A stretch of 64,000 bases of DNA from Haliclystus octoradiatus (lineage: Eukaryota > Cnidaria > Staurozoa > Stauromedusae > Haliclystidae): NCBI GenBank assembly GCA_916610825.1, contig OU744453.1, forward strand, positions 9,275,845-9,339,844, in the 5' to 3' direction. The notes below the pieces were generated by a model, which was not told the origin of the DNA, searched no databases, and worked only from the letters and a program-made list of their open reading frames with translations. Below, one piece after another: positions 24,901 through 58,532 of this stretch. Positions within the stretch are counted from its first letter, which is position 1. The number at the start of each line of letters is the position of its first letter. The translations under genes were made by a program, and so were the position numbers.

Positions 24901-27900
24901 GTATTTCAAATATTGAAACACAATGCAAAACTACGTTTTGTTGATATGTATTCAATATGAAGTCAATGATATAAACACTTGATACATTACGGTATTCTCC
25001 TGGCTATTTCCAAGGGACTTAAAAATAAGCTAGATGAAACACAGACTAATAGCGACAGAATAGTCCTATATATTGTTTGCAGTCTATACTAGGCCTACTG
25101 CTATTATAACATGGGTCTGACAAGGTTCAGCTTTCTGTGGGATCCTAGAGGCATTTCAACATTTTCTTCTGAATATTGTTGTCGACGTTTAACCAATAAA
25201 TCATAAAAATATTAATTTTCTTCTGAATTTGCTCTGACCTTTATTGCAGGATTTCTGCTTTTGTCGTACCCTGATACTAATGATAAATATTACGCCAAAA
25301 TCAAATATTCATATATGATATTTGTTACTATTAGTTTCTTGCCTTTGGCGATCATCAGGCAAATTGATGTAATAACACTTTCTTATTTTTAGCATTAAGT
25401 ACTATTACAGAACAAAGACAAAATAAGTAGAACTTAATTTTATATTTAATATTACTGCGATTATATGTATTACTTGCTAGCTAGGGTATACATCTGACAA
25501 GAAGTAATTAAACAGTTAGTCTCCCCTCTTAATCTAATAATTGGCTTCTCAATTGATAGATTGAAACTGCTATAAAGTTTTTACAAAATGTCAAAGTTAA
25601 ATCAACTCCAATGGCAAGGAGAATATCCTTCTTGCAACAGAAAGGACTCAACAAAGCTGAGATAAACGCAGCTATTGGAAGATCAGGAAGTGTTGAGTAT
25701 GAGGTAATTAGTCACTTTTTATTGTTTATCACTTATGGATACATGTGTTGTATATGTTTGTATGTATATACCACAACCATACAACCATTTGACGACCATA
25801 ATGTTTTGTATTGTGAATTGTCCTATTTACGAGTTTCATTGTCAGCTATGTTTGACCGTGATTTCTTGCGTTCTTTGTGTAGCAAATATGTTAGGTGTAA
25901 GAGGGACAGCACATTCCTATAATGTGACTGTCTATACTACTACTACTACTACTACTATTACTACTACTACTACCTTACTACTACTACTACTACTATATAT
26001 GGCTGTATATGAAAGGTGATTAAAATTCACAATGTCTGCAATTATAATAGATACATCTTAACATTAGGGCGTCACAACGAGTCCCGAGAATTGGGGATTC
26101 AAAGGAAAAGTCGAGGACAGGCATCGCATTTCTGGAAACATTTCCTGAAACTTTACTTAAAAAATTATAACTTTTTCTGTTTATGAAGTTTACTATATTC
26201 CCTTCCATTCATATTTCATTTCCGTTGAAAGTTTTTTATTAAAGGGCTAGAAGGCTAGAGCAAATTCAGAAGAAACTGTTGAAATGTCTCCAGGATTCCA
26301 GAAGGATGAAGCCTTTGTTGGACCCACACACCCGAGTGCTTCATCATTGAGAAATACAAAAGCTGCTGATCATTTTATCCCTTTAAGGTTGAACTGTTCC
26401 ACAATTAAATTACACAATTACATTGTATATTTCAATTGGATTTGGAAGTCTTCCGATGTGCTCTCATTTTTGTTTATTGCATGATTGATACCGACAATCT
26501 GATTGGCTGACATCTAATCAAAATTATGAGAGCAAGCTAACCAATATGATTGAGTCACTGCTCTTGCACGTCAAATGCAGAGTCAGCAAAACAGCTTTGT
26601 CGGGAGTGATATTTAGACTTTACATTTTTCTCAAGAATTGTTTTAGTCTGCATACAGGCTACCTTTAGGGGTTTAATCAAGCATCTGTTAACTGCACCAT
26701 AAATGTTTTTATTTTGTTATGTAGCCATCAAAAGTGGAACATAATAACACCGGGTGAGTAGGTTTACTTGCTTTTTATCTCAACTAAATCAACTTTCCCA
26801 ATCAAGTGACTGGTTTTGTTGTTGTCATCATACATTTTATTTCACTGCCCTTTTATTAAATAGGAGACTCATAGGGGGGAGGTGCCATTCTTGCATTTTC
26901 AAAATTTTTGTTTCAATGCATTCAAAACTGTTTTTGTTGATTTCTGTATTCTGCTACTGGCTAAATAAAGTCTATTCTCATATTCATATTTCGTAGGATC
27001 CATTAAAATTGTCATGGTATTGCAGATGTTTTCCTAAATGCTGTGTAAATAATGAACATTCATACCTCCAATCTTGCTGTTATATGCATTAAAGCATTAA
27101 TACACTATTTTACAGACCTATTAATAATGCCTAACTCTAGCTCTTGCATTCGAAAAGCTATAACTCATCCATCAACGGTCCACCGCGTTTCACAACTTTT
27201 CATTGCTTAGGTCAATGGAAAACTTCACAGGCCTCTTACCCATTGTATAATGCATAAATGCCAAGTAAAGAAAGTTAATATGGTGTGGCTTTATCATCAC
27301 TGTTATATTTCAAATGCTGGATTTCCCCATAGAAAGAAAGTGCATGGGTTCAATAACATGTAATTACCCAATTTTTACATTTGTGAACTGTTTCTGATTC
27401 ATTTGTAAAAAATTTGTATGCAGTGTTTAAGGATTATGAACTTTTCCTAGGGCTTAGATAATTATGTGATCTGCTGTCAGTTTGGATATTATATGATGTG
27501 TTTAATTTTTTGTTAATTAAGATTCAATCCCCAACAACAGTTCAACCATCCACAAGGTAAACACTGTTATTTTAAAAGTTGATTGCTCCTAATTCAATAT
27601 AGTCTATTTTGATTGAACACTGAACAACACTCCTACTAATTATATCAGTAAAGCAATATTTTCAATACTTCTCCGAACTCAGAACTATTTGTCTATCAAT
27701 GTTATATTTCCCAAACAGGATTGTTTCAATTCATCCTATTTCTTAAACTAAAGAAACATCTGCGCTAAACAGATCCCAATTACCAACAAGAGACAGTTAA
27801 TTACTCAGAATCCAGATTTCGTACCTATTCCCCTGTAAAAAACTTTTCAGGAATTCATGAACACTCACAGACAGTTCATGAATAGTTCATGAACTGAATA

Positions 27901-30900
27901 GTTCATGAATAGTTCATGAACTGAATAGTTCATGAACAGTTCATGAACATTTGTGGCCATTTACTTCCAAAGAAATATGTTAACATCCTTCATGATACCA
28001 CTGAAGCTATTGCAGCATCTGAATTGGAATAATGTACCAATTTGTGGTTACATTGTCTATAAAAATTATACTGTAAGAAGTTAAAGGGACTATGCGGACC
28101 GGCGGTCTTCTTTATTTAAAAATGAGTTCACTTTTCAATACTGGTTTTCATGTTTGCTGTCTCCTTCTGTCTGGTGTTGAATGTTTATGAAAAGCTGAAT
28201 GACCCCATCTTGCCTCGTGTATTTTTCCACGGCGCTGACTAGTTTTCTTGAATTAATATAGTTGCGATCAAATTTTAATATTTCATGATATGTCCACATA
28301 TTGTAAACATTATTTATCGACGCAATCAAAGGGAAAGACAGGAGAAAAGTGATAGGAAGTAAAGATCAGAAATACCTGAAGCGGAAACAGGACCTCAGCT
28401 CAAAGCTACAGCTACGGTAACGGAAATCTGTCCGTGAAAATGCAATGACAGTATGCGTGTGTTTTTAAAATTTTACAAAAGGAAACATCAAATTTCTGCA
28501 AGTCTTTCAGACTCTCTATTTGCTCTGGTCTTTTAAAAAATATATATTATCTGGATAATGTAATCAAGCTAGTTTTGTGTTGTGATGTTGCTATCCATGC
28601 TTTGTAGATTAATCAACCATTCTAATTTGAATTGTAATCATATTTCCAAAAGATGTTGACTACATAACGGATATATTTATATTGGTCAATATTTGTGAAT
28701 TTTGTCAAGTTGTCAATTGTTAGCATACAGTACAATTTACTGGACTTGTTCAACTTGCTGTTGACTTGGTCTTTTTTTCAAATTGTTGAATAATAAAAAC
28801 GTGTTTACGTTTTTGTGCTGATTCGTTTTATTCTCGTATTTTTTTTCTGACGTAAAAGCTATATGATAGCCTGCACAACCATAAAATGCGGTATGCCCTT
28901 ATTTAACTGCAATTTTTGTATTATTACTGATTCCTGTCTATAAGAGTTTTCTTGCAAAATCAAAATTAATTATGAAATAGAAATAAATGTTTAGGCCATT
29001 TCTGTTTGTTTTGCTATCCTCACAGCTTTCAATGCATCCAACCAAAATGCGGAGGCGATGTAGTGATGTACAATAAAATCTGCTCCCAAAAAGAATCCAT
29101 AAGGGCTGCCTGTCCACATAGGAATAGTCTAAAAGCAATAACTCTAAGGTCAGCCTCTCTCGAACCAACTCACTAAACGAGGCTTGACACTAGATCAAGG
29201 AGGATCGCAATTTGATCACGTGTTTCACTCGATCACGTGGTTAGTGTTAGTGATTGGGGTTAGGGTTGGTCTCGTGGTAACAACCCGGTCGAGTTTAAAT
29301 TCGTTTCCGTACCCAATCCCTTGTCGGCATGACACAGTGGGAGTGCATCCGACTAGTATGCGCATCATATTAGTTCGATGACAGGTCGCTTCAAATTTTA
29401 CATTTATTTTCATTATTATGTTTCAAACTGTTGGTTAAGTTGCTATTCGTTTATAATACGCATGCGTTGCTACTCGAAAGCAGCGAAGCAAACAAGTACC
29501 ACAGTCGCCCTTAGAGTTATGGCAAATAGACTCTTCTGTCCACATAATCCCTTTAAAACAAACTATACATTGGAATAGTTGCTGATATTTTATGGATCCC
29601 AAACCAGTGAATACAGTGAAACCTGCATATAACAGACAGCTACTAGAGGCAGTTAAAGTGACCGTGCATGTGGCCTTTATATGCACGGTTTCTGCAATAG
29701 AAAATGTTTGTTTAGACATTGCTAGAGTGACCATAATAGGCAAGTGGCTGCTGTATAGAGGTGACCGGTATAGCATGTTTCACTGTACTTGAAATTTATA
29801 CTGTAGTCAGTGTCCGACAAAAGGTTTAGCCTTCCGGAATCTTTAGAGATTGGCAGCTTTTTCTTCGAATTTTTTGTTCAGGTTTGACTAATGAAATCAA
29901 AAATTATAAAATTTTCTTCTGAATTTGCGCTAGCCTTCCGGGGTCTAGGATCCCAGGATCCCAACTTTTGTCTGACCCTGATTGTAGTCTCCTCAAACAT
30001 AATTACTTTGTAACTGATAATAATATTTAAATGTAGCCCATTTATTTTGTGTACTTTTAAACATTTTGTAATACTGTGTATGCTTTTTAACTCTATTTTT
30101 GCAGTTTCTCATATCAACAATAGACCTGGATGGTCAAGTATTGTATTAACAGCTATCCTCGGAGGTGGCGTTGCTTATGTAATGAATCGTATTGTCAAGG
30201 TAATCATAATTAATAATTTTGAATTAAACCTTGGATAAAACTGTTATTATTATCACAAACTTAGCATTGAACTCTGAATTTAGAAGCATGCTCTGTCAGA
30301 TGTTCCGACGTCAATAGCTCTGCTTGTTTACAGTATAATTCATACAATCTTACATTTTAAACAGCTTTTGAAATAGGATTTATTTAAATTTTTATAGTTT
30401 GATTATTTTTAGCCTGTGTGCAGACAGGAGTTTTCTTGGTGTAGCACGTTATCTCCAAGTTTAGCGTACTGAATGTTTTTTCCACTAACAAGTTTTGGTA
30501 GTATGTTGTGATTGGCTAATAAAATATGTGAATAATTGCCAAATATTTCAAAATAATGAAAAAATTCAATAAAGAAAAGTCTGTCCACATGCATGCCAGA
30601 TTATGTCAGGATGTGATACAAAATTATTCTCAAATGTGTTCTGATGAGAAAATCAATTCTCAGGCTGAGAATTTATACCATATTTCTGTTCTCGCGAGAG
30701 TTTATTACCCCTGTGAAAAAGTTCATGGTGTCATGAACGTGAAATTGCTCTAATGTTCATGAAATGTTCATAAAAACATGTGCAATTTCACATTCATGTA
30801 CATGTTCATGAACTGTTCATAAACTATTCATTAACCATTCATTAACCAAAAGGAAATGTCCATGGACTGTTCATGAAGTTTGTGAATTATTGATAAACTG

Positions 30901-33900
30901 TGCATGAACTGTTCATGATTCCATGGGTTTATTCACAGGAGAATATGTTTAGAGTTTTGAAAGAAACCTAGAGAGCCTATGGGTCACTCCAGGACAACTC
31001 TCAACAAACCCTCACCCTCTCAGAATTTAATACAACGTATTTTGCTAAGGCAATGTCACACTTGTTGGTAAAGCAGTTTTCACAGCGGAAGCCACACTTT
31101 TAAATGCGTCATTTTAAATTTGTTCTTTTTGTTGCAATTAATAAGATTTAAAACATTTCTAAAATTAATCAATTGAAATTAATCAGATCAGCAACTTTAT
31201 AGCCCTCTATTCAAATTTGTAAAATGAATATTGCAAAGTTAACGCATTCCTGCTAGAAAAATGTTAGCTTTTTCCCCATTAACTTTACGTATTAGTTTAG
31301 TGGGGCCTTAGGAGACCATTTCCTGATGTCGGACAACCTTCAAATTTTGTTTAACTTGTTTTTAGACCCAGTCAAGTAATAAAATGAGAAATCACTTAAC
31401 ATTTTCAGCACAAGTCCTTTTTGGACCAGTCCATTGTATGTGTACAATTATGTGTTATTGCTATAATTACTATAGGTGTATGTGGCACCATTGTTTTTGG
31501 GTAAAGACAAAAAAGACCACTTTATGGAGCGTATAATCAAGAGTATGAAATCATTTGAAGAAAAGCATATTGAAATGGGTATGAAAATTATGACAAACAT
31601 AATAGATCAAATGTTGAGAGTCAAAACAGTATTCAATAATGTGATTGTTAACAGTTGTTTGCATAATAAATTACTTTATTGCTCTCTCTGCATTTGTAAT
31701 TGTTAAATAGGGTACAACCAGTCTAATCACTAGCAGTTGTTGACTTAATGCTGTACAAATCAACAATGTTTTGCTGATGTAGGCCTACAACATTTTATTC
31801 CTATCATTTAGGCTGGAATTCCATTTTACTGGATATTCATCTGAGCAAAATGATTTCCGTACCAGCTAGGCATTTAAGTTACACTAGACCATAGTAGTGC
31901 GGTATGCGAGAGTTTCTTTTATCGAGTAAAATCTGCTCTGCTACGAACAATGGTTAACATTTATCTGGTAGATCATTGCTGCCAAGCGTGGAATGTAACT
32001 GATAGAATCCTGTGCTGATGCCATCACATTGTCATACACAAATTGTCTTGCTACGAGGAAGCCAATCAGCAATTAGCGAATTATTGAACGCGAGTTGACT
32101 CGCTTATATGTGTATGTGTATATACTGTATATGTGTCAGAGGGGTGCTAATGTATTCCAACAATCAATCCAGTATAATTTTCAGTCTGATGGCGCAATAC
32201 ATATCCAGTATGATAACTAACCGGTATAGTGCAATTCCCACCTTCTTGTATTTTTTTTTGGAAGCGTCCCATTATTCTCATGGTTAACCTGTTTTCCTCA
32301 TTATCAAGAAATTATAAAATCTGATATTTTACAGAGTAGCAACCCTCATGGATGCACACCAAAGAGGGGCCTCAGTAATCAGTATCAGTTACATTTTTAC
32401 CTGCAAATGCCATCTATCCATGGTTAGCAATCCTGGCGTATTCATTTCCGTATCTACCAAGCCTCTCCATTACATGACGGTACTGGCTTAGCAACTCTCA
32501 CTCTTTGCTGGCTTTTATGCAGCTATTTTAACTCCACCTAAAGCGCAGGCCTACTTTGATAGTACATATAGAATTTACTTCAGTGCCCTGTGATGGCTCA
32601 TTGGATACCCTGCTTATTATACTGCATTTAAGAATGCCAAGATGATATCATTCCTCTCAAACTTGTTTCTCACCACATAGTGTATCACATATTGGTGTTA
32701 CGGTTTTCATTTTCAACTGGCCTACTCCCAGTACAAAGGAAGCAATCCATTCATGAATCTACTGATAGAATTTCTAAATTTCTCTCATATTTCTTCTAGC
32801 ATCTGGTTTGAAGACAAGCTTTGATAACATTGAGGTGAGAGATCACTTTTGCTATTAAGCATGATTGTTACATGTCATGCATTTCAATCTCTCTCGTCTT
32901 GTTTGTAAACTACAGTCACATTATCATCTCTCACTGTTGAAAAAAAAGTCACTTACCGGAACAAGCACCAAATACTCTCCACTGCCGCACATTTGGTAAT
33001 TTCTGGACTTTTGCTTTATAGAACAGAGAAATGAATGTTATAGCATTCTTTTTACTGGAGGTCTACTTTATGAACAAAAGAAAAGCATACAATCTATCAT
33101 TGCGAGTGATTTTGATATTAAATCACTCAATGGCATGTTAACAGGCTAATAGCTAATAATTGTGCCGCTAATCCCCATATTCCTTTTAAAAAGTATTCAA
33201 TTATATTTTCTTCGAAACGTACCAGTCTTGTTATCAAAACACGACTTCTCAAAACACTTAAAAAAGCGTTTTCAATAAAAGAGATTCAAAATGACTTTAA
33301 AACTGCTTCAAATGTAGCCCAGAATATTGAAAATGATTTCAAATACATTCATTTTAATGTTGCATTAAAAATTAATCTGTTTAGCCCAATATTTGTACGG
33401 ATGTCACAAATTTAACCTGTGAGGTTTTTTCAAAATAATTTCTGCACTATTAATTCTTTCAGTCGATATCCATCATAATCAATAATTTATTCGAGAAAAC
33501 AGCACTGTTCTCAAAAAATCATCACCAAAAAAGTTGGATGCAATGTTATTTGATTTTTAATATATAATAGGTCTACAGCTTGACAAAAACAGAGAATTTC
33601 ATAAAAATGTTGGTAACTTCATGTATTACCGACAGGGGCCGATAAAATATTTTTCCATCAGGGATTACAATTTTTGTTTCCAAATTGTTTTGCTTTAAAC
33701 GCAGTTTACAGCCTTTTTAGGAGGTATTGTCATATAGATATGACAAAAACTGTACGTTTCTACGCATCTTCCAATTAAAAGAAAGTAAACGATTTTTCTT
33801 TGTATTATAACAACTTCAATACAACTACTTTCTTCACTCCCTTCTGAATTTATGCTATCCTTCTGGGACTCTCATTCCCGGAATCCTCCATTTTATCGAA

Positions 33901-43646: not shown

Positions 43647-43652
43647 TTTATT
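43647..43652 (-). promoter_or_regulatory. Poly(A) signal of LRRC34-like gene
   Basis: AATAAA on the minus strand, 27 bases after the stop codon at 43679. This implies a very short 3' UTR. Confidence 0.6.
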
Positions 43653-43678
43653 TTCTTTCAATATTATTTGTTAACTAG

Positions 43679-46600
43679 TTATAATTTATATTTACATTGC
43701 ACATAAGCTAGGTTTGCATTTCCATCAACTGTGTAGACTTGTACATCAATGTCACCTTCATTAAATCTCGGAGTAGGTTCTTCTTGTAGAAACTTGAATG
43801 CCTGTAAAAACATACATTCAGCTGATCAAACAACAAACCTATGTACTGTAATATGACCCTATTACATCTATAGAAAAAAGGGCTTGTAAGCTAGTGGGAG
43901 ATGTATTGGTAGGCAATATCTGTGATGCATTTGTGGACCATTTTATCCCTGTTCTACACAACATAAACACTCATAATAATGGCTACAGTGTTGTTTTACC
44001 TAAAATAAAAACTGAGTTTGGAAGAAATGGATTCTATTATTCAGGAGCCAAACTTTTTAATTCTTAACAAATAGATACCCGAAAATTAGGTCTTACATCA
44101 CTTTATAACAATTAGAATCATTTTTAAAAATATTAATCAATCACAGGTATAAAAATAAAAATTACACCATTACATACTCTTAATTTTTACATATTATATA
44201 TATTTGATTTTAATTTTGTAAACAGGACAAACGTTGATAACAGCAATTTGCTGAAGTTTTTATCCTGTATAAATATTCGGTATAAATATATAAATAAATA
44301 AAATATATACTTAATGGACAAGACACAAGACAATTGAACAAAGTTTCAATAAAAATTATTAAGATTAATCCAAAGTGTCAATATGTTTTTCCATAGAAGT
44401 TTGAAACAAAGGGTAATTAAAAAAGATATACTCTGATGGTTGTTATATCAGTAAGATTGTTTTTTATACTACATCACTCGTATAAACTTTTATTTTTTCT
44501 GTTTCATTTGAAAATGACTTACATTATATTGACACATTACAGTTCTCAGAGTATTTCATTGTCGCCTTAAATTTGAGTTTAATACAATGATAATATTAAC
44601 TACATCAAATGTACGATACTGTATATATATCTGGAAAAGTAATTCATCATTTACCTTACCGATAAAGGCATTGTCTGATATGGAAACTGTGTTGTAAATG
44701 TGGTGGACATTTGTTGGACAAGTCACACGTAAATATCCGTCCGACGTAAATTTCTTTCTTTGCATCCAGTAGCAAAAAAGCGTTAATTGTTACTGCACAA
44801 TGCATTATACTCTTAGACAATCATAATTTTTTTAGTTATTGACAGTACGTGGTCCAGTCATATCATTACCTCACAAACTGTATGCGTGAACTGATTTCCC
44901 CATACAAAGATTCTCCTCAGTGTAGCGTTGACATGCATTGAGTCTATGATTGCTTTCAAGCCATTTCCACCAATACTGTTGCTGCATAGGACAAGTCTGC
45001 AAGTTAACAGAATAGAATAGAACTAAAATAAATAGACAATAAAACAGAATTGTTAACATTGCATGCCCGTCATAAGCCATCCCCACCTATAAATACTATC
45101 AATCTAAGGCAAAACATTATCTGGGCTACATCTTCAGCAAAAAACATTGGAATGTGGTTTGATGATGTTTTGTCAATGGAGAAGCAAGTCAGAGGCATCT
45201 GTAAATCGTCGTTTTACCATCTACAAAACATTGCCAGAATCAGGAAATATGTTTTCTTTGAACAAAGTGAGGTTTTGATACATGCCTTTATAACTTCAAG
45301 AATAGATAATTGCAATACTCTACTATCAGGCATAATGCCAAAAAAACTTGGTAGAATTCAGTATATTTAAAATTCGGCTGCGTGTCTTCTCACAACAACT
45401 AGAAAATATGACCACATAATGCATATTTTTATTGATCTACACTGGCTCACTATAGTTCAACAAATTAAATTTAAAATATTAGTCATCACATATAATTCAT
45501 TGAATGGCATTGCACAGATATATCTCAAAGAACTTCTGCATCCATACACACCTACTGCATTACGACCATCGGACAAAAACTTCTTGTGCAGCCTAACTTT
45601 AACTTGAAGACCTGTGGAAATCGAGCATGAAAATTTGGGCCATTTAGCCTTCATAAACTGTTCATGAACTGTTAGAACTCCTGAACTGTTTTCGCGGGGG
45701 TAATTTTATCGGTTCCAGTTCCTCACTTTATGCCTAATTTGATTTTGGAAATGAGATATTGGGTCTCCACGATTGCAACTATCTCTACGTGTACTGCATT
45801 ACTTGTAACTTCCACATCTTGAACCGCTCTTTTACGTGAATTTGTATTCAATGTTCAGAACAGCAGGGTTGAATATGATCGTAGTTATTTATTCAAAATC
45901 TCCTTTTCAAGATACCAATTAAAAAGAAATTTTAGCACAAAGTATTTTTAGACTGCGAGTCAATTTTCCTGAATCAGCGAGTTATGTACTTAACTGTCTT
46001 AACGCACTTTATATACAGTACTGAATAAGAGCTCCTCAATGCCAGCTAAAACATATCATTTATGCTTCTTCTTTAAAACTCTTTGTATCAAATTATACTC
46101 ACGTCTGTAAATTTGTATTTAATCTTGCAATAGCTTTACTGAGTGAGATTGCCCCATCATCTTCAATTCTGTTGGCTGATAAATTCAAATACTCCAGTGG
46201 TGTGTTTTCAGTTAGTAATTTTGCAATAACTGCTGCTCCATCCCTTGATATCTTGTTACTTGAAGAAACAAAACCAAAGCTTAAATGTAATTATGCAAAC
46301 TCTTGACATGAATAATTGGATATGGAAAGATTGCCCAGACTTCGAATAATCAATTTGGCGAACATGTCAATAGTAGTAGTAAGTAGTAATTGAAACGGTT
46401 ACCGCTCGTCTATTCTCAGAAGAATGGCTCTTTTCGCTCAGAGCAATGATGTTATATGCTCTTTATTTATCTCAGTCACGACACTGCAGATCAATTTCAA
46501 CAGATCTCATGGCAAATAGGTCTTGATTGTCAATGCGCAAGGATGCGCCACAGCTACTCACAATATAATTCCCTCTACACCACTCCATCCGCTATCCTTT

Positions 46601-49600
46601 GATGGTACGCATTTGATGTTTAGATAAAGTCAAAGCCGAACTGACCTAAGTGGAATTTAAACCACAGTCGATCTGATATGATAAGGTTTTGAGTTTGGTT
46701 GCTCTGACATATGAGCTCCTCCTTCCTAACATTTCAATACCAATTGGATAAACACCAATCTGAGTAGACTGTTCATATACTTAAGTGTTGATCAGTACTG
46801 TGATAAATGCCTGACAACCATGATTATACTGATTACTCATTACAGCATTTTGAATATCAGTATGTTTTCAACTACAATATGGTACAGTGTAACCTGCTTA
46901 TGTGCAATTCGGATAAGTGAATTTCCCGCTTATCTGCAACCTGGCTTGGAAACCCGTTAAACAATTTTCTGGTCAAGTTATTGTTAAACAATTTCGGATA
47001 ACTGCAAATTCAGGTAAATGCAATGAAAACCGATCGCAATTTTGACTTGCTCTTAAGCGGGTTACACTGTAATACCCGTTGCTGATGTGTACGTTAGCAT
47101 TCAAATTATGACTCCTGCACGAGAACCAGAATCTAAAATACAATCCTTGTAAGTTTCTAATTGGGTTAAATTGGATGTGTATTTCAAATTATGTTCATCT
47201 TTCAATAGTTTATTATAATAATTTATTTTTGCTGAGTTTTTATGTTGGTAAACAAGATTCAACTTTATAATTTTTTTTATTAAAGTTTTTTTTTTAAATG
47301 TTAAGGAGTCGCAGTCTAGTGTTCTTACATTGTCAAAGCCAGACTCCAAGTCAAGCAGCTCAATCAGGACTTTTCTAGATTCTGGATCTGGACTTCTGAA
47401 TTGTGGCTGTTTGCTTCATTATTTGAATTTCGGCAGCAGGTTAAAAACCGATTAAGACATTGCCAATTGAATGATTATAAAAATGATATATCCAATTGAA
47501 TGATAAAAAAATGATTATAAAAATAAAATGATATAATGATATATAATTTAATCAAATAATCATAATCATGATAAAGTGTTTAGTTGCCAGCTTGGTTTCA
47601 TTGAATTGTGATATCTCATTGCTGTTTAAGACCAGACCATAGTTATAGTTATCCTTTATATTTACAACCACATTGATAACCATAACCAAACATAACACAA
47701 AAATTCACCTACAATATTTCAGGGTCAATCAGATGCCCAGTCCTACCATGTTAAATCCAAATGCGTCAATGCAACATTGTTCATCAGACTAATAGCGATG
47801 CGATCAATGCCATCATTACCAATGCCATGGTTACCAAGTTGAATTCTTTCAAGCGTTGAATTTCTCTAAAAAGGAAGGATATATTTTAATTTTCATTGTT
47901 ACGCGTAATCATGACTATCTTTTTTCATGTTATTCCGACATCAGGATTTTTAATTTCAGTACATTCCAACTATCTTTGAACTGAAATGATTCTAGTAATT
48001 TGTCTTTGTTTGCCAACAACTATGGATTCACATGTTGTTGTTGATTTTAAAATAATGTCTGCATGTATGCGCGGAAAAACATACAAATAAGATCTTTCGC
48101 AAGTTTTCTTTCTTCTTTTTACTGGACTTACGATCACCAGGCCTGACAACTACTGTGACACATATTTCATGTGTCCATCTGGTATAGATGAACAGTCTAT
48201 GAAGTATTCAATACATTTTTGCCAGAATTAAACAATTATTGTCAAACAGTTCATGAACTGGTCTAGGATGAAATATTTACCTTCTAAGGTTTACATAAAT
48301 CACGTCAAAAAATCATAAAATGGTTGCCATATAACATGCATGGACTTTTTCTGAAGTGTTTCTATAAGGTTGTGCGAGTTTCATTGGTAAACGAAAGTCA
48401 GTGAGTGTGTATTATTTTGAGATTTCATGCTCATATAAGCTTTGTCGTAGATGTTATCATACAGTCATACGTGGAAACTCTATTGCATGTTCTCTTACAT
48501 ACAAGTTACAGTCAAACCTGTTATAACGGTCACCTATATGGAGGGACCACTTGTCCATGGTGGTCGCTCTATCAATTTTTTCAATGCAATCAGTTATTGG
48601 AATGAAAATAACATCCCAGTTTTTACATTCATCTGTTTTAATTTTACACTATTTAATGCCAATTTGTATTTCCGATATTATTTGCATCACTACGAGGAAA
48701 CGTTTTATACGCAAACGATACAATCTTAATTCAATAGACTCAGTAATCCCCTGTGAAAACAGTTCAGGAGTTCACGAACAGTTCATGAATGTTAAATGGC
48801 ACCAGATTTTCATGAACTGTAGGTGAGAGTTCATTAACTGTTCATGAACAGTTCATGAATAGTTCATGAACAGTTCATGAATAGTTCATGAACAGTTCAT
48901 GAAAATTGGGGCCATTTAATATTCATGAACTGTTCATGAACTCCTGAACATTTTTCACAGGGGATTGCATAGATAGCTAGTAAGTGGATTCTATTAAAGT
49001 TAAATTTCAATTATTTATATTTTAGGAACTTTTGATTCATATCTTTATTCAATTTTAAATTTATTTTAATGTTCGTCATTCTGCAAAACATGCCAATTAC
49101 TGGCAGCTAGTTGTAATTTATTCTAAATTCCTGTAATAGAATATGAGTTTCAATAAATTGATTCATTCATCTCTAAAAGAGTATTTTCTTTTGAATCAAC
49201 CATGTATATAAAGATCATCTTCATTTAATGTTCAATTTATATACCTCTTATAGGTGGCTACTATCTGCGAGTTTTGCTGTATCGTAATGATTGTGTTAGG
49301 CCAAATATGCGATAAGTTGCAGACAGGGTATAATTTACATATATGACAAATATGTGCACTGAATATTTCATTATAATTTTATCATTGGATTACCTTACAC
49401 ATGTTTGCAATGTGAGTAGTTGTTTCTTCCTATAAAATGACAGGAACGTGATATCATTTATAATGTTGTGAATGAGATATTTACCATTGATAAATACTGG
49501 TACTTTACTGTTATTTTTTTATGGTATATACATGAGACTATCTCATGGATGAGCTGGTTCCTTCTATCTGTCTTTTCTGTGAAACAAAATTAAGATTCAC

Positions 49601-52600
49601 TTGTTTTTCTGGCATACTGTTACTTTATTGTTTAGTTCAAAGGATTGTTTTCTTTTTTCACTGAGCCTAGTTCACTTCTATAATCTGTCAAAATCACAGT
49701 GCAAACCATACATTAAAATGCATCACTTTGAAACACAAATTTACAGTATAGGTTCTCATCCAATAGACTTTCAAATGTCACAGTAATATTTCTGAGATTG
49801 TTACCTTCATAGACATAAAAAATTATGCAATAATATCTTACCGATATTTAAATATATTTTTTGAAATTTTTGAGCGTTTTCCCGTTGACTTTGTGTAATT
49901 TAGAGGGGCGTTAAGCGCCCATTTCCCAATATTTTTTGAACACAAATTTTGAACGTATGGTTTTCTCACCCAATAGAACAATAAAATGGAGAATGCAATT
50001 CAACTTTAAAACTTTCTGAGCGGTTCATGAAGTTCAGTCCAGGAACCCTTAAGTAGTGGAAGATAAATTACCAGTTTTTTCATGAACTCTACATGAACTA
50101 TAATTCATGAACCGGATATCAATAAACTACTACTGTCCATATATCTAGAAAATACTTAAGTCCTTAAACTAACTCAGTAAATAAATCAATATATGTATAA
50201 TAAAGAAAAAGTTTATTTATATATGTATATGAACGGTATTGTTATTAGTTACAAATTTTATATATAATGTATGCATGCCTAGGTTTGCCTTTCTCTTTCA
50301 AGTTGATATGGACATAGGTATTACCTGCACACTGAATAGTAATGGGCGATTGATGTTGACCGTTTGAAGTGTCTTGTTATAATTCAAAACCGTACAGAAG
50401 GCGATTACAGTTTCTGCTGTCTAAATTGTAAGAAGCAATCAAAATGAAATGTTTGTAATTTAAGTCAACACCAGGCAGTCTCTGATTCAGTAGTGGACAT
50501 AATTTTGTGTACACAAAGGAATTACTGTCAACCAAAGAAAAGCATCAAAAAATAAGTCTGTATCTTTACTTTAATACAACACAGACGTAGTATTTGGTTT
50601 AAAAAATTATCGCCTGCTCGATATCTAAGATCATTTACAAATTGGGTCCATCCTACAACTTTCTAGTGTACAGGCTCTACAGTAAGAACTACCAGTGATA
50701 GACCACCCAGCAATAGTAAATAGTAGTTTGAAATGGTCTTGAATTTTTTAAATGATTCAAACTGTAAGTGGGGTATTTGGGGCTAGCACATATACCTATA
50801 AATTGTACCACGCATGTATGTGTGCCATTTGTACGGTGTAATCCATTGAAATTACATTGTTGAATATCTCATAGACCTCATTTGTAGATATTCTTTGTAT
50901 ACGGACTCAATGTTGGAGTTAACTTTAGATTGCCTATGTTTTGCTATTTAATACAATCCTACAATTGTGTTCCCTTGAGACCCACTTTTACACGTTTTTG
51001 TAACATATTCTCTGGATATATTGAAAATAAACATTGCACACCAATCAGGATACAATTGGGACAAAAATATTGTATCCAGCGTATAGATAGAAGGACAATG
51101 ATCAACTAATGCTTTGAAAATATTTTAGTTACATGTTGATGTAATCATATTCTAGAGAAGTCATCTGTCAGTTATCTTCAAAGAAAGCTAAATAGATGAT
51201 AGCATTTTAGCTTTTTACATTTCTTTAAAAGTATCTAAATTGAATTGTGTTACTTATCTGTGGCTTCATTCACTGAACAAAGACAATAAAGCCCAATTCG
51301 CTATAAACATGTTAATTGTGATCTTCATTGTAGAGCGGGAGAACAATAACTAGAATATCCCCAGCAAAAACATTTCAGGAGTTCATGTACGGCTCACGAA
51401 CAGTTCATGAATAGTTCATGAACAGATAATGAGCATTTAGGGCCATTTAACGTTCATGAATTGTTCATAAACTGCTCATGAATTCCTAAACTGTTCATAA
51501 ACTGTTCATGAACTCCTGAACTTTTTTTTTTGCAGGGGATAACGTCATTTTAGTGACTTTCTAGATTTTTTTTCTAGAAATAAACCAGCACTCCTTGGTA
51601 ACGATATTCCTTGGTGTATTCAATAGCGTGGCAGTCAGCTAGCATGCAGCATTCTTACTATTAGAATTACAACCAAAGGTTGAGTCACTAATTAGGATTA
51701 TAACTATGCAATTCCTGAACTATGGGCATAGAAATACAATCCATACAGTCCGCAATTCACTAACCAAATCGCATGAATTGAGGCCTATAGTAGATAATGT
51801 TTCATTGACTTGCAAGACATTAGCTAATGCCAATCCTCCTTTATTGCCAATCTTGTTGCCATCAAAGCTAAAAATTTTCAAAGTTTCATTCATCTAATAA
51901 GGAAACAAAGTATACAATTATGTATGAAATGGACATCACTTAATATCCCCCATGTGGTATGAAGTGATGTGGGGTAATTTGAGGGAGTGAAAATACTTGA
52001 ATTGTATGTGGAATCCCCTGCAAAAACAGTTCAGGAGTTCATGAACAGTTCATGAACATTAAATTGCCCAAACTTTTCATAAACTGTTCATGAACTGTTC
52101 ATGAACTGCCTGTGGGGTTCATGAAATTTGGAGTCATTTAACGTTCATGAACTGTTTATGCACTGTTCATGAAGTCCTTCACTGTTTTCGCAGGGGATGG
52201 AATATTGCTACATTGATATATTGATTAATTAATCGAGAAGTAAACTGGGATGAAAAAGAGCAAATCTGTAAGTGATATTGACTGTATAAAATAAAGTACG
52301 AACGATTTCATTGTGGAACGATCTTCCTAATAATGTAGTGATTTGTGGAAATATCACAAATTTTAAATCAGAACTGAATAAATTTGACCTAAGTCAATAC
52401 TGTAGATTTTACTAACATTCCTTCTTTAATTTAATTTAATTTATTTTATCAATTTAGCAAACTTCTTAAAAATTCATAAAAATACATATTTATACAAATG
52501 ATTACAAATAGATTAAACTACCTGTATTTACTATTTAGCTATTAAATTTTTCAAATTATTCAGCGGCACACATAAGTGGATGTACATCCTTGTGTGCTTG

Positions 52601-55600
52601 TGTCATATTTGACAAAAAATACATACATATATACTTAACTAATAATGAAGAAGGAGGTATGAATTACAGCCTGATAATTGCACGATCTCGGCATGAATAA
52701 AATGAAAAATCAAGTCGAGTTGCCTCTTCAAGTGATTTTCGCCTTTTCAGTGTTCTGACAGCCACGCAAGTGCAATTATTAAGCTGTAATACATAGCTCC
52801 CTGTTTATTATTTCTTTTATGACATGATAGTTAACAATATTAGTATTTTTTGATATATTTTTCTTCATAAATGTGCTGCTTGATTCTTCTAAGCTTCGTT
52901 CGAATCGATAATTCATAGACAAAGATTTAAATCGATAATTTATAGCTTTGTTTGAAATGATAATTCATAGGTATTTTTATGAATCGAATCGAATATTGTT
53001 TGATTTTATCACTCCGTTGCTTTGCTATTGATTATTTCTATTGTTTTTTCAAGCCATGTAATTATAGCTTGAGATATGTAGGAGATTAAATAACGACACA
53101 ATCCATATAATTTTGATACTCTTTATTTTGATAATGGCAGGCCGTGTCTGCTGACATTACAGGGAGAGATGCTAAGGGCTGCTATGGCCGTTAGTCAGAG
53201 ATCTTTGATACAGCAGACACGACAGTAAGATAGTAAGAGGCAAAAGAGAGCGTTTACGTGGTACAGTTTACACACATATAGATTTACCAGAAATGATTAA
53301 CAATAGACAAATATACGATGACGTGAATACAATATAAAACCACTACAGATTTCAATTATAGTTGAGCAGTCATAGCTGAGAGCACATTAGAACTACAACT
53401 CATGATGACCCAATAGAAACAGGTTTTACCCTCAATGGTTGCCTTGTCGATCCAAGTGATATAACCCTATTCAAAAGATGGATCAGTGATGACTCAGTTA
53501 ACTGAAAGTTTGTTAACATTTCAGTATTTCATTAAAAATTTTAAAAGTTTTTCATTAACCTTTTTGATGAACATTTTAAAGACAGTTCATCATCACTTTA
53601 TGCAAATTTCATGAACATTTCATTAGCAATTAATTGAAAATCAATGGACTTGAATGAAATGTTTTCATGAACTTTCCGTCAACAGCTCATAAATTATTCA
53701 TGGACTTGGAATTAAAAATTTCATAAAAGTTGTCATTTCCCATCCACAAGTTAATTTCTTGTAGGAAATCATACCTGTATCCCTTTCGAAATTTCCATTC
53801 CCCCTTGTGGTCCAATTTCATTGTAGCTGATATCAAGTGTATTCAAAACAAGAGTATCCTGAAAAAAAAGTTATCTGTTGAAATATGGTGTTTGTGTGCA
53901 TGACTATTTCACTGATAGCAAATCTAAGATAAATTATAGTCCAAAAAAAGTCCAGGAGTCCATGAACAATTCATTAACATTAAATGGTCTCAATTTTTAT
54001 GAACAGTTCATGAACGTTAAATCATCCCAATTTTCATGAACTGTTCATGAACATTAAATCGTCCCAATTTTCATGAACTGTTCATGAACCCTCACAGACA
54101 GTTTATAAACAGTTCATGAAAATTTTGGGCCTTTTAACGACTCCCGAACTGTTTTTTGCATGGGTTCTGGTTGGTTAAGGGGTTTGCAAGTTTGAGGAAA
54201 TCGGTGCTAAAGGTAAAAACTTTTGTGAAATTGCACTGCAGTGCAAATTGTAAAATCGTAAAACACAACAGAAAACAGAGTTTGAAAAAGACCCATGCGA
54301 AAACAGTTTAGGAGTTCATGAAAAAGTTGAATGGCCCCAAATTTTCATAAACTGTTCATGAACTGCCTGTGAGGGAAGTTCAGGAAAATTGGAGCCGTGT
54401 AACGTTCATGAACTGTTATTGAACTGTTTGTGAACTGTTTTCTGCAAGAGGTGTTCTACACATCCCACTGTCACCCCTGCGAAAACAGTTCAGGAGTTCA
54501 TGAACAGTTCATGAACAGTTCATGAACGTTAAATGGCCCCAAATTTTTATGAACTGTTCATGAACTGTTCATGAACAGTTCATGAACAGTTCATGAACAG
54601 TTCAGGAAAATTGGAGCCATTTAACTTTCATGAACTGTTCATGAACTGTTCATAAACTCCTGAACTGTTTTTCACAGGGGCATGTTCTATGCTGAAATAA
54701 TTTGATTTAAGATTTCAGTAATCAACTGGGTGGATAAAGGAACACAGAATTGAATAAACGAAGTGTCTATTTGACCGGCAGTCGCAGCCATTATGGATTC
54801 AACTGCGCGTGCGCCGACAGTCAATGACGTCATTCATTCGATCACGTGTTTCACTCGTCCCAGTATTAGGGTTAGGTTTAGGGTCCGATCACGTGATCCA
54901 CCCGTTTAGGGTTAGGGTCAAGTCACGTGATAACCACTTGTTCGAGTATAACTTCATTTCTGTTTCATAAGCTCCCGTCGGTTGGCTTAGCTCATTCGGA
55001 TTGAGTCTGGCTAGAGTGCAGGGTATGCTGGTTCGAGTCCTGGTCGAGACGAATTTTTAAACTATTTTCATTATTTATATCCCGAAATGTTTATAAGTTA
55101 CTGCTCGTAAATTATACGCATGCGTTCGTATCCATAATGGCTGCGACTGCCGGTCAAATTAGAAATAGTCACAGCGAATATCGAACATAGATAGTGTGAC
55201 GTATATATCTTTGCGCATGCGCTGATGACTGCCGGTCAAATAGCCTTGGCGCTAAATGACCGGCTGCCGGTCAAATAGTCACAGCATTGAATAAATTATG
55301 TACATTTTGTATTTTTTTCACCCAGAATTGATTGAATTTCTATGAGTTAATGAACTTTTTTTATGTCAATTCATTAACTACTGTATTCCTGAAAAGTTCA
55401 TAAAAAATTCATCAAAATTGGGCTATTTAACGTTAACAAGCAGTTCATGAACCATTCATTAACTTATGAATCATCTTTCATACGGGAATGGTTTGAATTT
55501 ATTTTTTTAATCAATCTGATATACAGTTTATTTGATATATTGTTCTATATTTCTATTGTTCTTATTCATCGACCACTCCTTGATAGTGACCATAATCAGA

Positions 55601-58532
55601 GGGTCCCTTGAGTGGCCGTCTACGAGGAGTTTTACATTATAAATTTTGTGTTTCCCAAAACTCTTTCTCTGTTTTTTAAATTGTCAGCTCACCACTAGTA
55701 AGTCTTTCAAATGACCAGCACCTTCATCACCAATGCAATTATAACTCAAGTCCAATCCAACAATGAATGTGTTTTCCCGTAGTGTTTTATATAATATAAA
55801 CATATCCTGGGAAGGGAAAAGAAGTAACACTGTAAAATTGAGATTTGAAGAGTTCACTCAGGCAAAAATCAGTGGACTCATATTGTAGAAGTCAATTTTA
55901 CCTTATGTCGGTCACGCTTGTGCGCACGCGCCGAACAAGGTTGACATCTGATAATCTATTACATAGCACGTGTAAACTAGTTGTAGAGAGGAGGTTGATT
56001 TGACCAGCAGCTATCAGCATGGTATGTAAATATATAAATAAATTGTTTGTCATTATCATTTATCATTATCTTTATCATTATCATCCGTTGTTACTAACTT
56101 ACTTAGTTTAAATATTAATTAATCCATTTATCATTCTATTACCTTTTAGTTTTAAACGCCATTACCATTATCATTGAAACATTGAAAATCATTAACTACT
56201 TAATGAAACAAAAAAGGAGAAATTGGTGTAGCAAATTGTGTCAAATATCTGTCTCCCATCATCTATCTTATCCTGTTTAGTCCTGTCTCTTGTATCTGTC
56301 AGATAAAGTCTACAACTCCCTGTGTAAATTTTAAATCAAATATTTTGGCGGGTACCCATATTGATAATTAACTAAATGTAGAGAAAGGAACCAAAATATG
56401 GATGTAATCACATCTCTATCAATTCGAGCAATGCAATAATTTAAAAACAATATATTCATTCCAAGATATTCATTGAACATAGTCTATGTCTGCATGAAAA
56501 TGATTCCCTGGGAGGATGTCATCCAAGGGAAAAATGTGTATAGTTCTATGCAATCTTTATCCCAAGTGCATCAATCCTTCACCAGTAGCCCTTTTAATAT
56601 CAGTGCAGATGTTCATGAACGTTAACTGGCCTTAAATGTTCATGAACTGTTCATAAACTGACCTTGAAGGTTCATAAAAATTGGGGCAATTTAATGTTCA
56701 TGAACTGTTTATTGACTGTTCATGAACTCATGAACTGTTTTTCGCAGGCGTACCTGCACAAGTATGTGCTCAGTTCATATAAAGTCTTTGTGAATCTTCA
56801 AGATGGTCAGTGAGTTTTTGAGTCAGTGAGTCAGGTGGAAAATCAGTGAGTTTTTTTTCAGGGGTTTCAAAACTTACTATACTAAGATAATAAGATACTA
56901 GCTTACAATGAAAAGAGACTTACTTGATCCTGCAACCTTTGTCTGTACATGTCGTTGCTATCATTGCGTTTGTTACCATTTAAGGAAAGACAGCATTCAA
57001 TTTTTGGATCACTTTGAATGAAAAAGGAAGAATAAGGTTATTATTCTTTTGAATAATAGATACATACTACATTCCTGTGATGGACAATAACAATATCAGA
57101 TTGTTAACAAAAAATGAACTTTAACGAAGTTCAGCTTCGGTCAACCTCCTCTACAGTTGACTTACCAAATGTCGCGAAGACTTCGCCAATATACTCAGTC
57201 ACTGATTCTATTTAAATTTGAACTCTTTTAATCCGATAGCTATAGAATATTAATGAATATTGAAAAAATATTTTTCAAAGCAGTTATTGATTCTGAGAAA
57301 ATTATATTGAATATTGAAAAGTTTGAGTATTTATGTCATAATAATAAAGATTATAGATGCTTTAAATCATCAATATCTATGTCATTTCTTATTGGACCAA
57401 CTGCAAACTTTTACCAATCAATCTTTTCAGTTGATATACGTCAAAATCAACAATAATTTATTTAAAATTTTTATTTCACTACAAACCCCTATTAAAATCA
57501 AACTAAAAAAGCAAGAAAAAGCCTAAATTTCATCTGAAATACTTGCTGTCATCTATTTACATATGTGATTCTAAACTCAAATCATCCAAAAGTACCACAA
57601 TTATTTTCCCTATAAAAATCACTTGCAGTATTGGAGTTTGAACAAAATACATTAAGTAATAGAGGTTGTTTCATTTTGTAAATATCTGATTCATTCAAAT
57701 TGTGGAAATTGCTATACAGCAGTACTACTATACTAGTACCTATAATAACTTCTATAAGCACAATAGATATTCTTTAAATTGACAATACACTGCAAGAAAA
57801 CAGTTTTTTTACAGAGGGATGTTGACTAGGAAGTCCTACAAGTGATAAGGTGCTCAAATGTTCAAAAGTTTCCAACAAACTGTAGTGATTTATCAAAAAG
57901 CTACTACACAATCCTGGAATAAAGCAGAATTATAGCGCATCTTAGGCTACCATTCAGTAGCGTCTGCTTGCAACATTATTACAATTTGTAACTCCTAGTT
58001 TTATATTATTCGAGGAACCTCCTGAAAATTATCAATGATGAATGAGGCGTGCTCATTAAATATTAAATTAATAATACACCAAAATAAAATAAATACCACT
58101 TCACTTATCAGACCAGTGTATTAATGTGATCGTAACACCGTGGGCCATTAGAATTACTGTGTCCGTCTAGAAGCATTCTAGAAGCAATTTGACATTTTAC
58201 TGGATGTCACACAGTTACAAGATCATACGGTGCTAATACTAATCGGTTTTACATTCCTTCGAAATGTTGCTGCCTTCGGGTAGAACATACCACTACTCCT
58301 ATAGAAGCCACAGACTGCATAATTTGTAGGTTGTGTGATTAAGTTATCTTTCAAATCTATGATAAGTCCGGCTGCCAGCATGAAGTACATATTTAAAAGT
58401 AGTTTTCTTAACTCACAAGCAGTTTTCTTCATGTAATTGCTCAAGCAGATAAATAATTTCCAGGTTAGTTGGGAGCTTTTCTGACTTGCAAATGCTCACA
58501 TAACACTCCTGTGTTGTTTTTGCATCAGACAT
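43679..58532 (-). CDS. LRRC34: LRRC34-like leucine-rich repeat protein (11 coding exons, 395 aa)
   Basis: Exons in transcript order: 58532-58417, 57011-56924, 55806-55693, 53858-53775, 51893-51765, 50420-50325, 49429-49394 (36 nt), 47865-47747, 46258-46103, 44996-44870, 43801-43679. All are GT-AG and phases close over 1188 nt. The protein is a string of ribonuclease-inhibitor-type LRRs of about 28 residues, e.g. LDLSYNCIGDEGA (86-98), LDISYNEIGPQGG (114-126), LDLTCNKISRDGA, LNLSANRIEDDGA and LVLCSNSIGGNGL. LRRC34 identity rests on the motif ININRP (here VNINRPLLFSVQEE), the IFVWGNQF block and the closing DVQVYTVDGNANLAYV, which I recall from vertebrate LRRC34. There is no signal peptide or TM segment, so it is probably intracellular; the vertebrate protein is linked to germ and stem cells. 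The C-terminus stops soon after the YTVDG block and lacks the vertebrate HYYW tail. Convergent with PEX14. Confidence 0.92.
43950..44067 (+). mobile_element. LINE C-terminal fragment (LRRC34-like last intron)
   Basis: A plus frame reads HNINTHNNGYSVVLPKIKTE then FGRNGFYYSGAKLFNS and a stop. This is the usual C-terminal block of non-LTR RT ORFs, lying antisense to the host gene. Confidence 0.75.
44653..44760 (-). other. Possible alternative exon, uncertain
   Basis: An open minus-strand segment with an AG before it and a GTAAGG donor (44653) lies in the last intron of the LRRC34-like gene. Direct joining of the exons ending at 44870 and starting at 43801 already gives the family sequence (VCE/AFKFLQ), so this would only be an alternative exon. 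Confidence 0.2.
45083..45603 (+). mobile_element. LINE RT C-terminal remnant (LRRC34-like intron 9)
   Basis: Reads NIGMWFDDVLSMEKQVRGIC then HAFITSRIDNCNTLLSG, a stop, and (frame kept) RKYDHIMHIFIDLHWLTI ... FKILVITYNSLNGIAQIYL. This is the standard post-RT region of CR1/Rex-type LINEs. One in-frame stop at about 45368 and the lack of upstream RT make it inactive. It is antisense to the host gene and abuts a half foldback at 45625. Confidence 0.85.
45625..45700. mobile_element. Half GTTCATGAAC foldback element
   Basis: CATGAAAATTTGGGCCATTT ... AACTGTTCATGAACTG ... CTCCTGAACTGTTTTCGCGG GGG is one arm of the family. Confidence 0.7.
46259..46884. other. LRRC34-like intron 8, first part
   Basis: No repeat ends or coding similarity recognised. 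Confidence 0.35.
46885..47069. mobile_element. TA-type MITE (185 bp)
   Basis: CAGTGTAACCTGCTTATGTGC ends mirrored by CTCTTAAGCGGGTTACACTG, TA on both sides (46883-46884, 47070-47071). The ends share CAGTnnAACC with the other MITEs, but the interior is different, so it is a separate subfamily. Confidence 0.75.
47072..47746. other. LRRC34-like intron 8, second part
   Basis: The minus frame 47101-47349 (lysine- and leucine-rich, 82 codons) has the texture of a LINE linker region but no diagnostic motif; left unassigned. Confidence 0.35.
48509..48580. mobile_element. Truncated TA-type MITE end
   Basis: TA then CAGTCAAACCTGTTATAACGGTCACC and GACCACTTGTCCATGGTGGTC, the left end of the 16490/61235 family; no right end found. 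Confidence 0.6.
48748..48963. mobile_element. GTTCATGAAC foldback element, complete (216 bp)
   Basis: CCCCTGTGAAAACAGTTCAGG at the left and TCCTGAACATTTTTCACAGGGG at the right. Inner pair GTTAAATGGCACCAGATTTTC / AAAATTGGGGCCATTTAA. The centre is six consecutive CAGTTCATGAA(C/T) units in tandem, the longest run in the window. Confidence 0.85.
49076..49172 (+). mobile_element. LINE 3' tail fragment
   Basis: ATTCTGCAAAACATGCCAAT ... CAATAAATTGATTCATTCAT resembles 23831-23940. Confidence 0.35.
49430..50324. other. LRRC34-like intron 6 with a diverged foldback (50017-50112)
   Basis: The diverged piece has GGTTCATGAAGTTCAGTCC ... TTTTTTCATGAACTCTACAT GAACT. The remainder shows nothing recognisable. 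Confidence 0.4.
50421..51358. other. LRRC34-like intron 5, first part
   Basis: AT-rich sequence, no feature recognised. Confidence 0.35.
51359..51538. mobile_element. GTTCATGAAC foldback element, complete (180 bp)
   Basis: CCCCAGCAAAAACATTTCAGG at the left, CCTGAACTTTTTTTTTTGCAG GGG at the right, with a single GGGCCATTTAACGTTCATG inner arm and several imperfect palindromes. Confidence 0.8.
52015..52196. mobile_element. GTTCATGAAC foldback element, complete (182 bp)
   Basis: CCCCTGCAAAAACAGTTCAGG and CCTTCACTGTTTTCGCAGGGG termini, inner ACATTAAATTGCCCAAAC / TTTGGAGTCATTTAACG pair, perfect GTTCATGAAC units on both arms. Confidence 0.85.
52296..52450 (+). mobile_element. LINE C-terminus and 3' tail
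   Basis: The frame from 52296 reads VRTISLWNDLPNNVVICGNI then FKSELNKFDL and a stop at 52413-52415; a (ATTTA)n-like tail follows. Same family texture as 21463-21652 but opposite orientation and antisense to the host gene. Confidence 0.75.
52654..52800. repeat. ~147-bp foldback
   Basis: GGTATGAATTACAGCCTGAT AATTGCAC at the left mirrors GTGCAATTATTAAGCTGTAA TACATAGCTCC at the right. Confidence 0.55.
52801..53140. other. LRRC34-like intron 4 portion
   Basis: Degenerate GATTCATAG... repeats of TCGAATCGATAATTCATAG (about 52893-52990, roughly three units); otherwise nothing. Confidence 0.4.
53141..53224. mobile_element. ~84-bp foldback, CGTGTCTGCTG ends
   Basis: GGCCGTGTCTGCTG at the left, CAGCAGACACGAC at the right. 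The interior TAAGGGCTGCTATGGCCGTTAG is shared with 16200-16235. Confidence 0.6.
53509..53745. mobile_element. Very diverged GTTCATGAAC foldback
   Basis: Repeated TTCATTAA/TTCATGAA words (e.g. GTTTTCATGAACTTTCCGTC) in the layout of the family, with no recognisable termini. Confidence 0.35.
53941..54164. mobile_element. GTTCATGAAC foldback element
   Basis: Left tip decayed (AAAAAAAGTCCAGGAGTCCATG), two tandem GTTCATGAACRTTAAATCRTC blocks, right tip CTCCCGAACTGTTTTTTGCATGGG. Confidence 0.7.
54291..54449. mobile_element. GTTCATGAAC foldback element
   Basis: ACCCATGCGAAAACAGTTTAGG at the left, TTTGTGAACTGTTTTCTGCA at the right, inner TGGCCCCAAATTTTC / AAAATTGGAGCCGTG pair. Confidence 0.75.
54474..54680. 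mobile_element. GTTCATGAAC foldback element, best-preserved copy (207 bp)
   Basis: CCCCTGCGAAAACAGTTCAG at the left and CTGAACTGTTTTTCACAGGG G at the right. Inner arms are GTTAAATGGCCCCAAATTTT and AAATTGGAGCCATTTAAC. Between and outside them lie about eight perfect GTTCATGAAC palindromes, mostly spaced by two bases. It has no coding potential. Confidence 0.9.
54769..55159. mobile_element. 391-bp TIR element with internal tRNA-like promoter
   Basis: Perfect 29-bp terminal inverted repeats, beginning ATTTGACCGGCAGTCGCAGC, close the element. Inside are CACGTG E-boxes, GGGTTAGGGT telomere-like words (about 54865-54920) and a tRNA-like block. That block has an A-box match TGGCTTAGCTCATTCGG (54983-54999) and a perfect B-box GGTTCGAGTCC (55030-55040). 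The core also occurs at 29213-29475 without the terminal repeats. More CCGGTCAAATAG words follow at 55230 and 55266. Confidence 0.75.
54972..55053 (+). ncRNA. tRNA-like sequence (SINE-type pol III promoter), not a functional tRNA
   Basis: A and B boxes are present with a 30-base gap, but the T-stem does not pair (GCTGG opposite CCTGG) and the acceptor arms match poorly. It looks like the head of a SINE derived from a tRNA rather than a tRNA gene. Confidence 0.5.
55345..55490. mobile_element. Diverged GTTCATGAAC foldback
   Basis: GTTCATAAAAAATTCATC, AAAATTGGGCTATTTAACGTT and GCAGTTCATGAACC remain, but the tips are gone. Confidence 0.5.
55807..56605. other. LRRC34-like intron 2, first part
   Basis: ATTATCATT-rich low complexity at about 56050-56190; no gene or repeat ends recognised. 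Confidence 0.4.
56606..56750. mobile_element. GTTCATGAAC foldback element (LRRC34-like intron 2)
   Basis: GATGTTCATGAACGTTAACTGGCC on one side, TTGGGGCAATTTAATGTTCA TGAAC and AACTGTTTTTCGCAGG on the other; left tip lost. Confidence 0.7.
57012..58416. other. LRRC34-like intron 1
   Basis: The plus frames 57253-57526 and minus frame 58223-58444 extend the host exon or are chance. No repeat ends recognised. Confidence 0.4.

Follow-up and report, generated by a model that had tools for sequence, protein, structure and literature searches.

Animal CACTA-related elements known as TRC are described as having tips that begin with CCC and as generating 2-bp target site duplications; the available text of PMC1636069 gives the 2-bp duplication for seven of 14 copies of SmTRC1 and for single elements of Tribolium and Aedes, and that of PMC4298943 reports the same combination of CCC-starting tips and a 2-bp duplication for Spongebob_HMa. 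A soybean CACTA element has CACTA tips and a 3-bp duplication, and in Spm subterminal repeats are recognised by TnpA (both from the accessible text of PMC2613891). Foldback terminal inverted repeats (TIRs) have been assigned mostly to Mutator (PMC4079207, available text), with exceptions that include Galileo of the P superfamily, whose TIR tandem repeats bind the THAP domain of the transposase, the authors proposing that multiple sites give specificity (PMC3688188, available text). Here we describe a family in which foldback architecture is found on TRC-like ends, with CCC termini and 2-bp duplications, a combination that appears to be new; searches of the literature text that was accessible, for both the repeat unit GTTCATGAAC and the layout, returned no report of it. 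In our view the copies probably form a large family of miniature cut-and-paste transposons, non-autonomous and of foldback layout, that are moved by a CACTA-related (TRC/EnSpm) transposase.

The window, that is, the whole 64-kb stretch of DNA analysed (C10:9275845-9339844), belongs to a genome of 262 Mb in 33 contigs. It contains 37 exact matches to the 10-bp palindrome GTTCATGAAC, compared with 0.11 expected. When near-matches are included, the units form about 15 clusters spanning positions 27830-56750; 13 clusters carry at least two marks of the family and one of them comprises three copies, giving a total of 15 copies in the window, while the clusters at 50023 and 53607 are too degenerate for certainty (Table 1). 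The inner arms of subfamily A occur 12 times in the window and not once in any of 20 plain base shuffles. These counts bear out the first-pass annotation, which had reported about fifteen palindromic foldback copies in 29 kb and none in the first 27 kb, and its coordinates, tips and inner arms for the four best copies (listed as full copies in Table 1) all agree with ours. Its two-base spacing of the units, by contrast, has to be corrected: tandem units lie one base apart, with a period of 11, and a two-base spacing is found in a minority of tandem pairs (293 of 7,368 genome-wide).

Table 1. Copies and candidate copies of the foldback family, in window coordinates
Feature	Position	Strand	Details
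Subfamily A copy	27830..27968	+	left tip CCCCTGTAAAAAAC, no right tip; 27-bp higher-order repeat within the unit array
Subfamily B copy	30708..30941	.	inner arm GTGAAATTGCTCTAAT, tips CCCCTGTGAAAA / TTCACAGGAG
Subfamily B copy, degenerate	38294..38426	.	
Subfamily B copy	42034..42185	.	right tip ATTTCACAGGGG
Subfamily A copy, right half, tip present	45623..45700	.	
Full copy, 216 bp	48748..48963	+	AT/AT flanks; at 48840-48893 exact units every 22 bp, one-mismatch units between
Uncertain candidate, very degenerate	50023..50112	.	three 1-mismatch units
Full copy, 180 bp	51359..51538	+	AT/AT flanks
Full copy, 182 bp	52015..52196	+	AT/AT flanks
Uncertain candidate, very degenerate	53607..53672	.	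two 1-mismatch units
Copy	53950..54164	.	37-bp block (inner arm + units) x3.5
Subfamily A copy	54292..54451	+	tip CCCATGCGAAAACAG
Full copy, well preserved, 207 bp	54474..54680	+	8 exact units; CA/CA flanks
Subfamily A copy, degenerate	55346..55472	.	
Copy	56611..56750	.	right tip TTTTTCGCAGGCG; left tip unrecognised

Anatomy was derived from 61 tip-to-tip pairs drawn from the genome and the window: the first 30 matches to one tip pattern, 14 matches to the second, four further places, the DDE loci L059 and L061 and the window itself, the other loci of L035-L064 being left out. A full copy runs from a tip through an array of (unit + A)n, the inner arm GTTAAATGGCCCCAAATTTT and an array of (unit + T)n to a loop of 11 nt, beyond which these parts recur in mirror image; some of the 61 pairs, which are old or mispaired, do not follow this plan. 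The tip is 22-23 bp long, CCCCTGYGAAAA(A)CAGTTCAGGA, and is followed by the units at their 11-bp period; element ends read CCCCTG...CAGGGG. Copies combine terminal inverted repeats built of a variable number of short tandem repeats with short length, absence of coding capacity and high copy number. They range from 65 to 502 bp, the smallest being L065 (66 bp) and a second minimal copy with CA/CA flanks (65 bp, L087:33-97) and the largest L021. In the short copies one or both inner arms are missing and the junctions fall at units; many of these copies look like deletions between units.

Although nearly symmetric, the copies are not identical at their two ends. The spacer from the C-run to AGTTCAGG could be measured at both ends in 45 of the 61 copies (16 were left out), and 31 of these combine a 9-nt spacer with a 10-nt one, four have equal spacers and 10 have other combinations. 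Loci had mostly been picked by the short tip, and the informative part of this count is that the partner tip is rarely short. In addition, of 41 oriented copies, 15 carry an intact left-type inner arm next to the short tip and three carry it next to the long tip. The unequal tips and the biased inner arm argue that the copies have a direction and descend from a master ancestor that was asymmetric.

Interiors differ among copies. In the window, three copies or more (those at 30708, 38294 and 42034) carry another inner arm, approximately GTGAAATTGCTCTAAA, and make up subfamily B; the hairpins L001, L002 and one end of L003 have still other interiors, yet they retain CCCCTGYGAAA-like tips and GTTCATGAAC units. 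Tips and units that stay constant amid changing interiors are presumably what a transposase would read. The long interiors L001:903-1286 and L073:117-616 contain no coding remnants recognisable by eye. A larger, unit-rich hairpin whose right end is CACAGGGG (L003:1378-2117) adjoins a BED-finger hAT-like gene (L003:1-891); a search for its left end did not find one. This gene, lying by a unit array (L003/L079), was considered as a partner and rejected: the array belongs to the separate hairpin, and the gene seemingly has its own end, TAGTGATGAGCC, at about position 4060 of L079, which we take to resemble a hAT end.

Insertion of the family duplicates 2 bp of A/T-rich target. Identical 2-bp flanks are found in 33 of 52 CCC...GGG pairs, compared with an expectation of 6.8 from matching the flank of one copy with that of another, and in these 52 pairs there is no excess of matches at 1 bp or at 3-8 bp (observed/expected 16/19.1 at 1 bp, 2/1.65 at 3 bp and 1/0.39 at 4 bp; no matches at 5-8 bp). 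The base next outward agrees in only five of the 33 copies with matched flanks. Over all 61 pairs, 38 have matched 2-bp flanks, namely TA (10), AT (9), AA (8), TT (4), CA (3), TG (2) and AG (2); stricter tip patterns, which miss tips with indels, had given 2/7 and 20/31 and are superseded by these counts. Target duplications, a point raised by the first-pass annotation, are thus present genome-wide as well as around its four best copies, with AT/AT three times and CA/CA once. An empty site was also identified. The 66-bp copy L065 is nested within another copy, between GGGACAT and TTAACG, and uninterrupted copies (L024, L073 and the window) have a single AT at the insertion point, in an alignment that reaches only about 20 bp beyond the junction. 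Four other candidate empty sites (L008, L010, L028 and L075) are too divergent to count, and of 280 junction-spanning rows most trace back to flanking units and do not represent empty sites.

Far outside the window, the 262-Mb genome contains 7,368 tandem unit pairs, and two tip patterns of 32-33 bases match at 611 and 712 places, 1,323 in all, while the reversed patterns match nowhere in either case; copies are therefore present elsewhere in the genome, and the lack of further copies that would have refuted the first-pass annotation is not seen. Among the matches listed, they lie on at least nine contigs (C1, C2, C4-C8, C10 and C11). On C1, a contig of 40 Mb, 51 of 93 places among the matches listed are located past the 30-Mb mark, which suggests uneven insertion or survival.

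The number of units changes in whole steps. In the outer array beside the inner arm, one, two, three and four exact units were counted at 112, 297, 167 and 16 ends, respectively; longer exact strings match less readily, so the real distribution is shifted somewhat towards longer arrays. Local duplication is evident in some window arrays, as repeats of 27, 30 and 37 bp, and at 48840-48893 GAAC and GAAT forms of the unit alternate. Slippage or unequal exchange, proposed earlier as the source of the differences in unit number, agrees with the whole-unit steps (1-4) and with the local duplication in some arrays. Expansion after insertion does not hold as a general rule: private variants are common to adjacent units in two of 83 pairs (41 oriented copies), as against 2.2% between copies, i.e. 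adjacent units are no more alike than units of different copies. Since so few adjacent pairs have private variants in common, the step changes mostly involve identical units.

Both marks of TRC elements, the CCC tip start and the 2-bp target duplication, are found in the family, as in SmTRC1 and Spongebob/EnSpm-4N1_HM, whereas the tips, CCCCTG, are not the CACTA/CACTG of CACTA elements sensu stricto. The TIR of SmTRC1 also has an internal repeat, a likeness to the array-bearing ends described here. In contrast to TRC elements, the copies here are gene-less and 65-502 bp long, their tips agree little beyond CCC, and palindromic arrays go unmentioned in the available text of PMC1636069 and PMC4298943. 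Plant CACTA elements, En/Spm included, resemble the family in their subterminal repeats and differ in their ends (in soybean, CACTA tips and 3 bp instead of CCCCTG and 2 bp), as far as the accessible part of PMC2613891 describes them. A profile search of the genome with Transposase_21 gave 36 matches, 35 of them above the cut-off; there were none in 14 control genomes, a weak control in that one control genome known by name is a bacterium. Because CCC termini and 2-bp duplications are the published marks of TRC and Transposase_21 is encoded in the genome, we infer that the partner acting in trans is a CACTA-related (TRC/EnSpm) element.

Six of the 36 Transposase_21 loci (L080-L084 and L088) were inspected for CCCCTGYGAAAA-type tips and none were seen, the ends of the element being visible for L082 only. 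L081-L083 represent one family among these six loci; L082 ends in CACTATG, and at L080:562 there is a single 8-base look-alike of the family tip. Nor were family tips seen in the Transposase_21 flanks L085 and L086. An exact tip at C1:16407012, 5.4 kb upstream of a Transposase_21 exon, turned out to belong to a 65-bp miniature copy. The genome does harbour a resident CACTA element with Transposase_21 (L085, L082 and L086), 7,316 bp long (C1:12759825-12767140), with tips CACTATGAATAAAA; three copies are about 99% alike over 3.4 kb, and the one copy with ends seen is flanked by ATTT/ATTT. It resembles the family in residing in the same genome and in having, at each end, a distance of 11 bp between its two outermost subterminal repeats. 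These repeats, TTGTGAA, lie at offsets 17, 28, 112, 134, 149 and 160 on the left and 18, 29, 70, 110 and 171 on the right; further inwards, the steps of 22 and 11 keep the 11-bp phase, whereas those of 84, 15, 41, 40 and 61 do not. With a different unit and with tips CACTATGAATAAAA that differ from those of the family, this element was rejected as the partner.

A CACTA-related (TRC/EnSpm) element supplying transposase in trans would account for the layout as follows. The 10-bp palindrome may be a symmetric site that a DNA-binding protein occupies as a dimer, either the transposase or a TnpA-like partner; the units are probably landing sites for the moving enzyme, by analogy with described elements. 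Spaced about one helical turn apart, they would place the dimers along a single face of the helix, and the aligned dimers could help to bring the two element ends together. Whole-unit gains and losses would then arise by recombination or slippage between identical units, as would short deletion derivatives of as little as 65-66 bp, and the strong hairpin may add silencing or instability. Galileo likewise has foldback-like TIRs, and their tandem repeats contain binding sites for its transposase; it is of another class, however, and a perfect 10-bp palindrome is unmentioned for it in the accessible text of PMC3688188. A more specific reading, which we put forward tentatively, is that in this CACTA/TRC-type foldback one palindrome per helical turn might form a dimer platform of variable length, with ends graded in whole steps. 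If so, units could pair and recombine in either direction, the family would generate its own unit-number variants, and hundreds of natural ends in one genome would amount to a dose-response series of unit count versus transposition; provided that the binding role is right, ends with one, two, three and four units could reveal how many sites are needed per end. Otherwise, this is an ordinary abundant MITE family, to be masked when annotating the genome.

Alternatively, in the same transposon the units may, instead of binding the transposase, serve structure or silencing, as hairpin DNA or double-stranded RNA, or bind a host factor. Two window copies do fold extremely well, with z about -23 (one modelled as DNA, the other as RNA); the strand 54474-54680 folded as DNA reaches -98.3 kcal/mol, compared with -22.4 for shuffles (z = -23). 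A host dimer, too, could bind palindromic units, and the units might be retained for the fold itself or persist by descent alone. For a hairpin, however, complementary arms are enough and no palindromic unit with a constant 11-bp period is required, and hairpins with other interiors (L001, L002 and subfamily B) keep CCCCTGYGAAAA-like tips together with the units. On balance, we consider this role of the units unlikely.

The same miniature transposons could also owe their mobility to an element of the PHIS type, such as ISL2EU or one of its relatives. Transposases of the DDE_Tnp_4 type are numerous in the genome (150 scored matches), and PHIS relatives overall are described as having 0- to 4-bp duplications (PMC10045372, available text). 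In a young THAP+HTH+DDE_Tnp_4 family, the unit occurs in a homologous hairpin between the transposase and a convergent gene in 11 of the 12 copies that have a frame of 525 aa, as well as in L048; all 12 copies are preceded by AT, as judged by left ends alone, and at L059 and L061 a family copy lies downstream of the transposase as well. These hairpins may nevertheless be passengers: L036 and L064 are without them, although in both similarity ends before that place. Moreover, the resident THAP+HTH+DDE_Tnp_4 family starts with AGAGCGTTTTCCCC, unlike CCCCTGYGAAAA, and ISL2EU duplications are published as AT (PMC4482050, accessible text), whereas AT makes up only nine of the 38 matched duplications here. 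PHIS-type mobilisation thus appears rather improbable to us. The resident ISL2EU-like family (L036-L047) is itself very young, its 12 copies with the 525-aa frame being about 99.9% identical. In L037 (C6:18198369) a convergent Ulp1-type (Peptidase_C48) ORF occupies the position of the YqaJ gene reported for ISL2EU (PMC4482050, accessible text), and the GTTCATGAAC hairpin lies between the transposase and this ORF.

Membership among Mutator- or P-type foldback elements such as Tetris, Muta1, Galileo or Drosophila FB is very improbable. The layout is similar, with long TIRs, a variable number of tandem repeats, as in Muta1 (Aedes) and Tetris (D. virilis), and many non-autonomous copies, but the available texts of PMC5225508 and PMC4079207 give Muta1 and Tetris duplications of 8-10 bp and units of 12 bp and about 220 bp, whereas none of the 52 pairs here match over 5, 6, 7 or 8 bp, including the lengths of 7 and 8 bp that fall within the 7-10 bp of Mutator/P-type duplications. 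Finally, an immobile satellite-like or gene-linked hairpin spread by duplication, to which the clustering within 29 kb and the local higher-order repeats might point, is hardly credible given the presence on at least nine contigs, the 2-bp duplications and the empty site.

The remaining features of the window are of several kinds. A Pfam scan of seven distinct ORF stretches at 27-57 kb (out of 78 ORFs from 26 kb on) gave one hit, a leucine-rich repeat in an exon-like ORF on the minus strand (46102-46290). At 2940-3934 there are two overlapping frames, the second of which weakly matches phage integrase and DUF3504, below the cut-offs, and may be tyrosine recombinase-like, perhaps of the Crypton type. 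A repeat with GDRYN/GDRYS in its translation is found at three places, about 16600, 29700 and 48560, and one of its occurrences is in frame with the start of a 911-aa ORF (16523-19258). A 147-bp tandem repeat occupies 40300-40648, with 2.4 copies and 93% matches.
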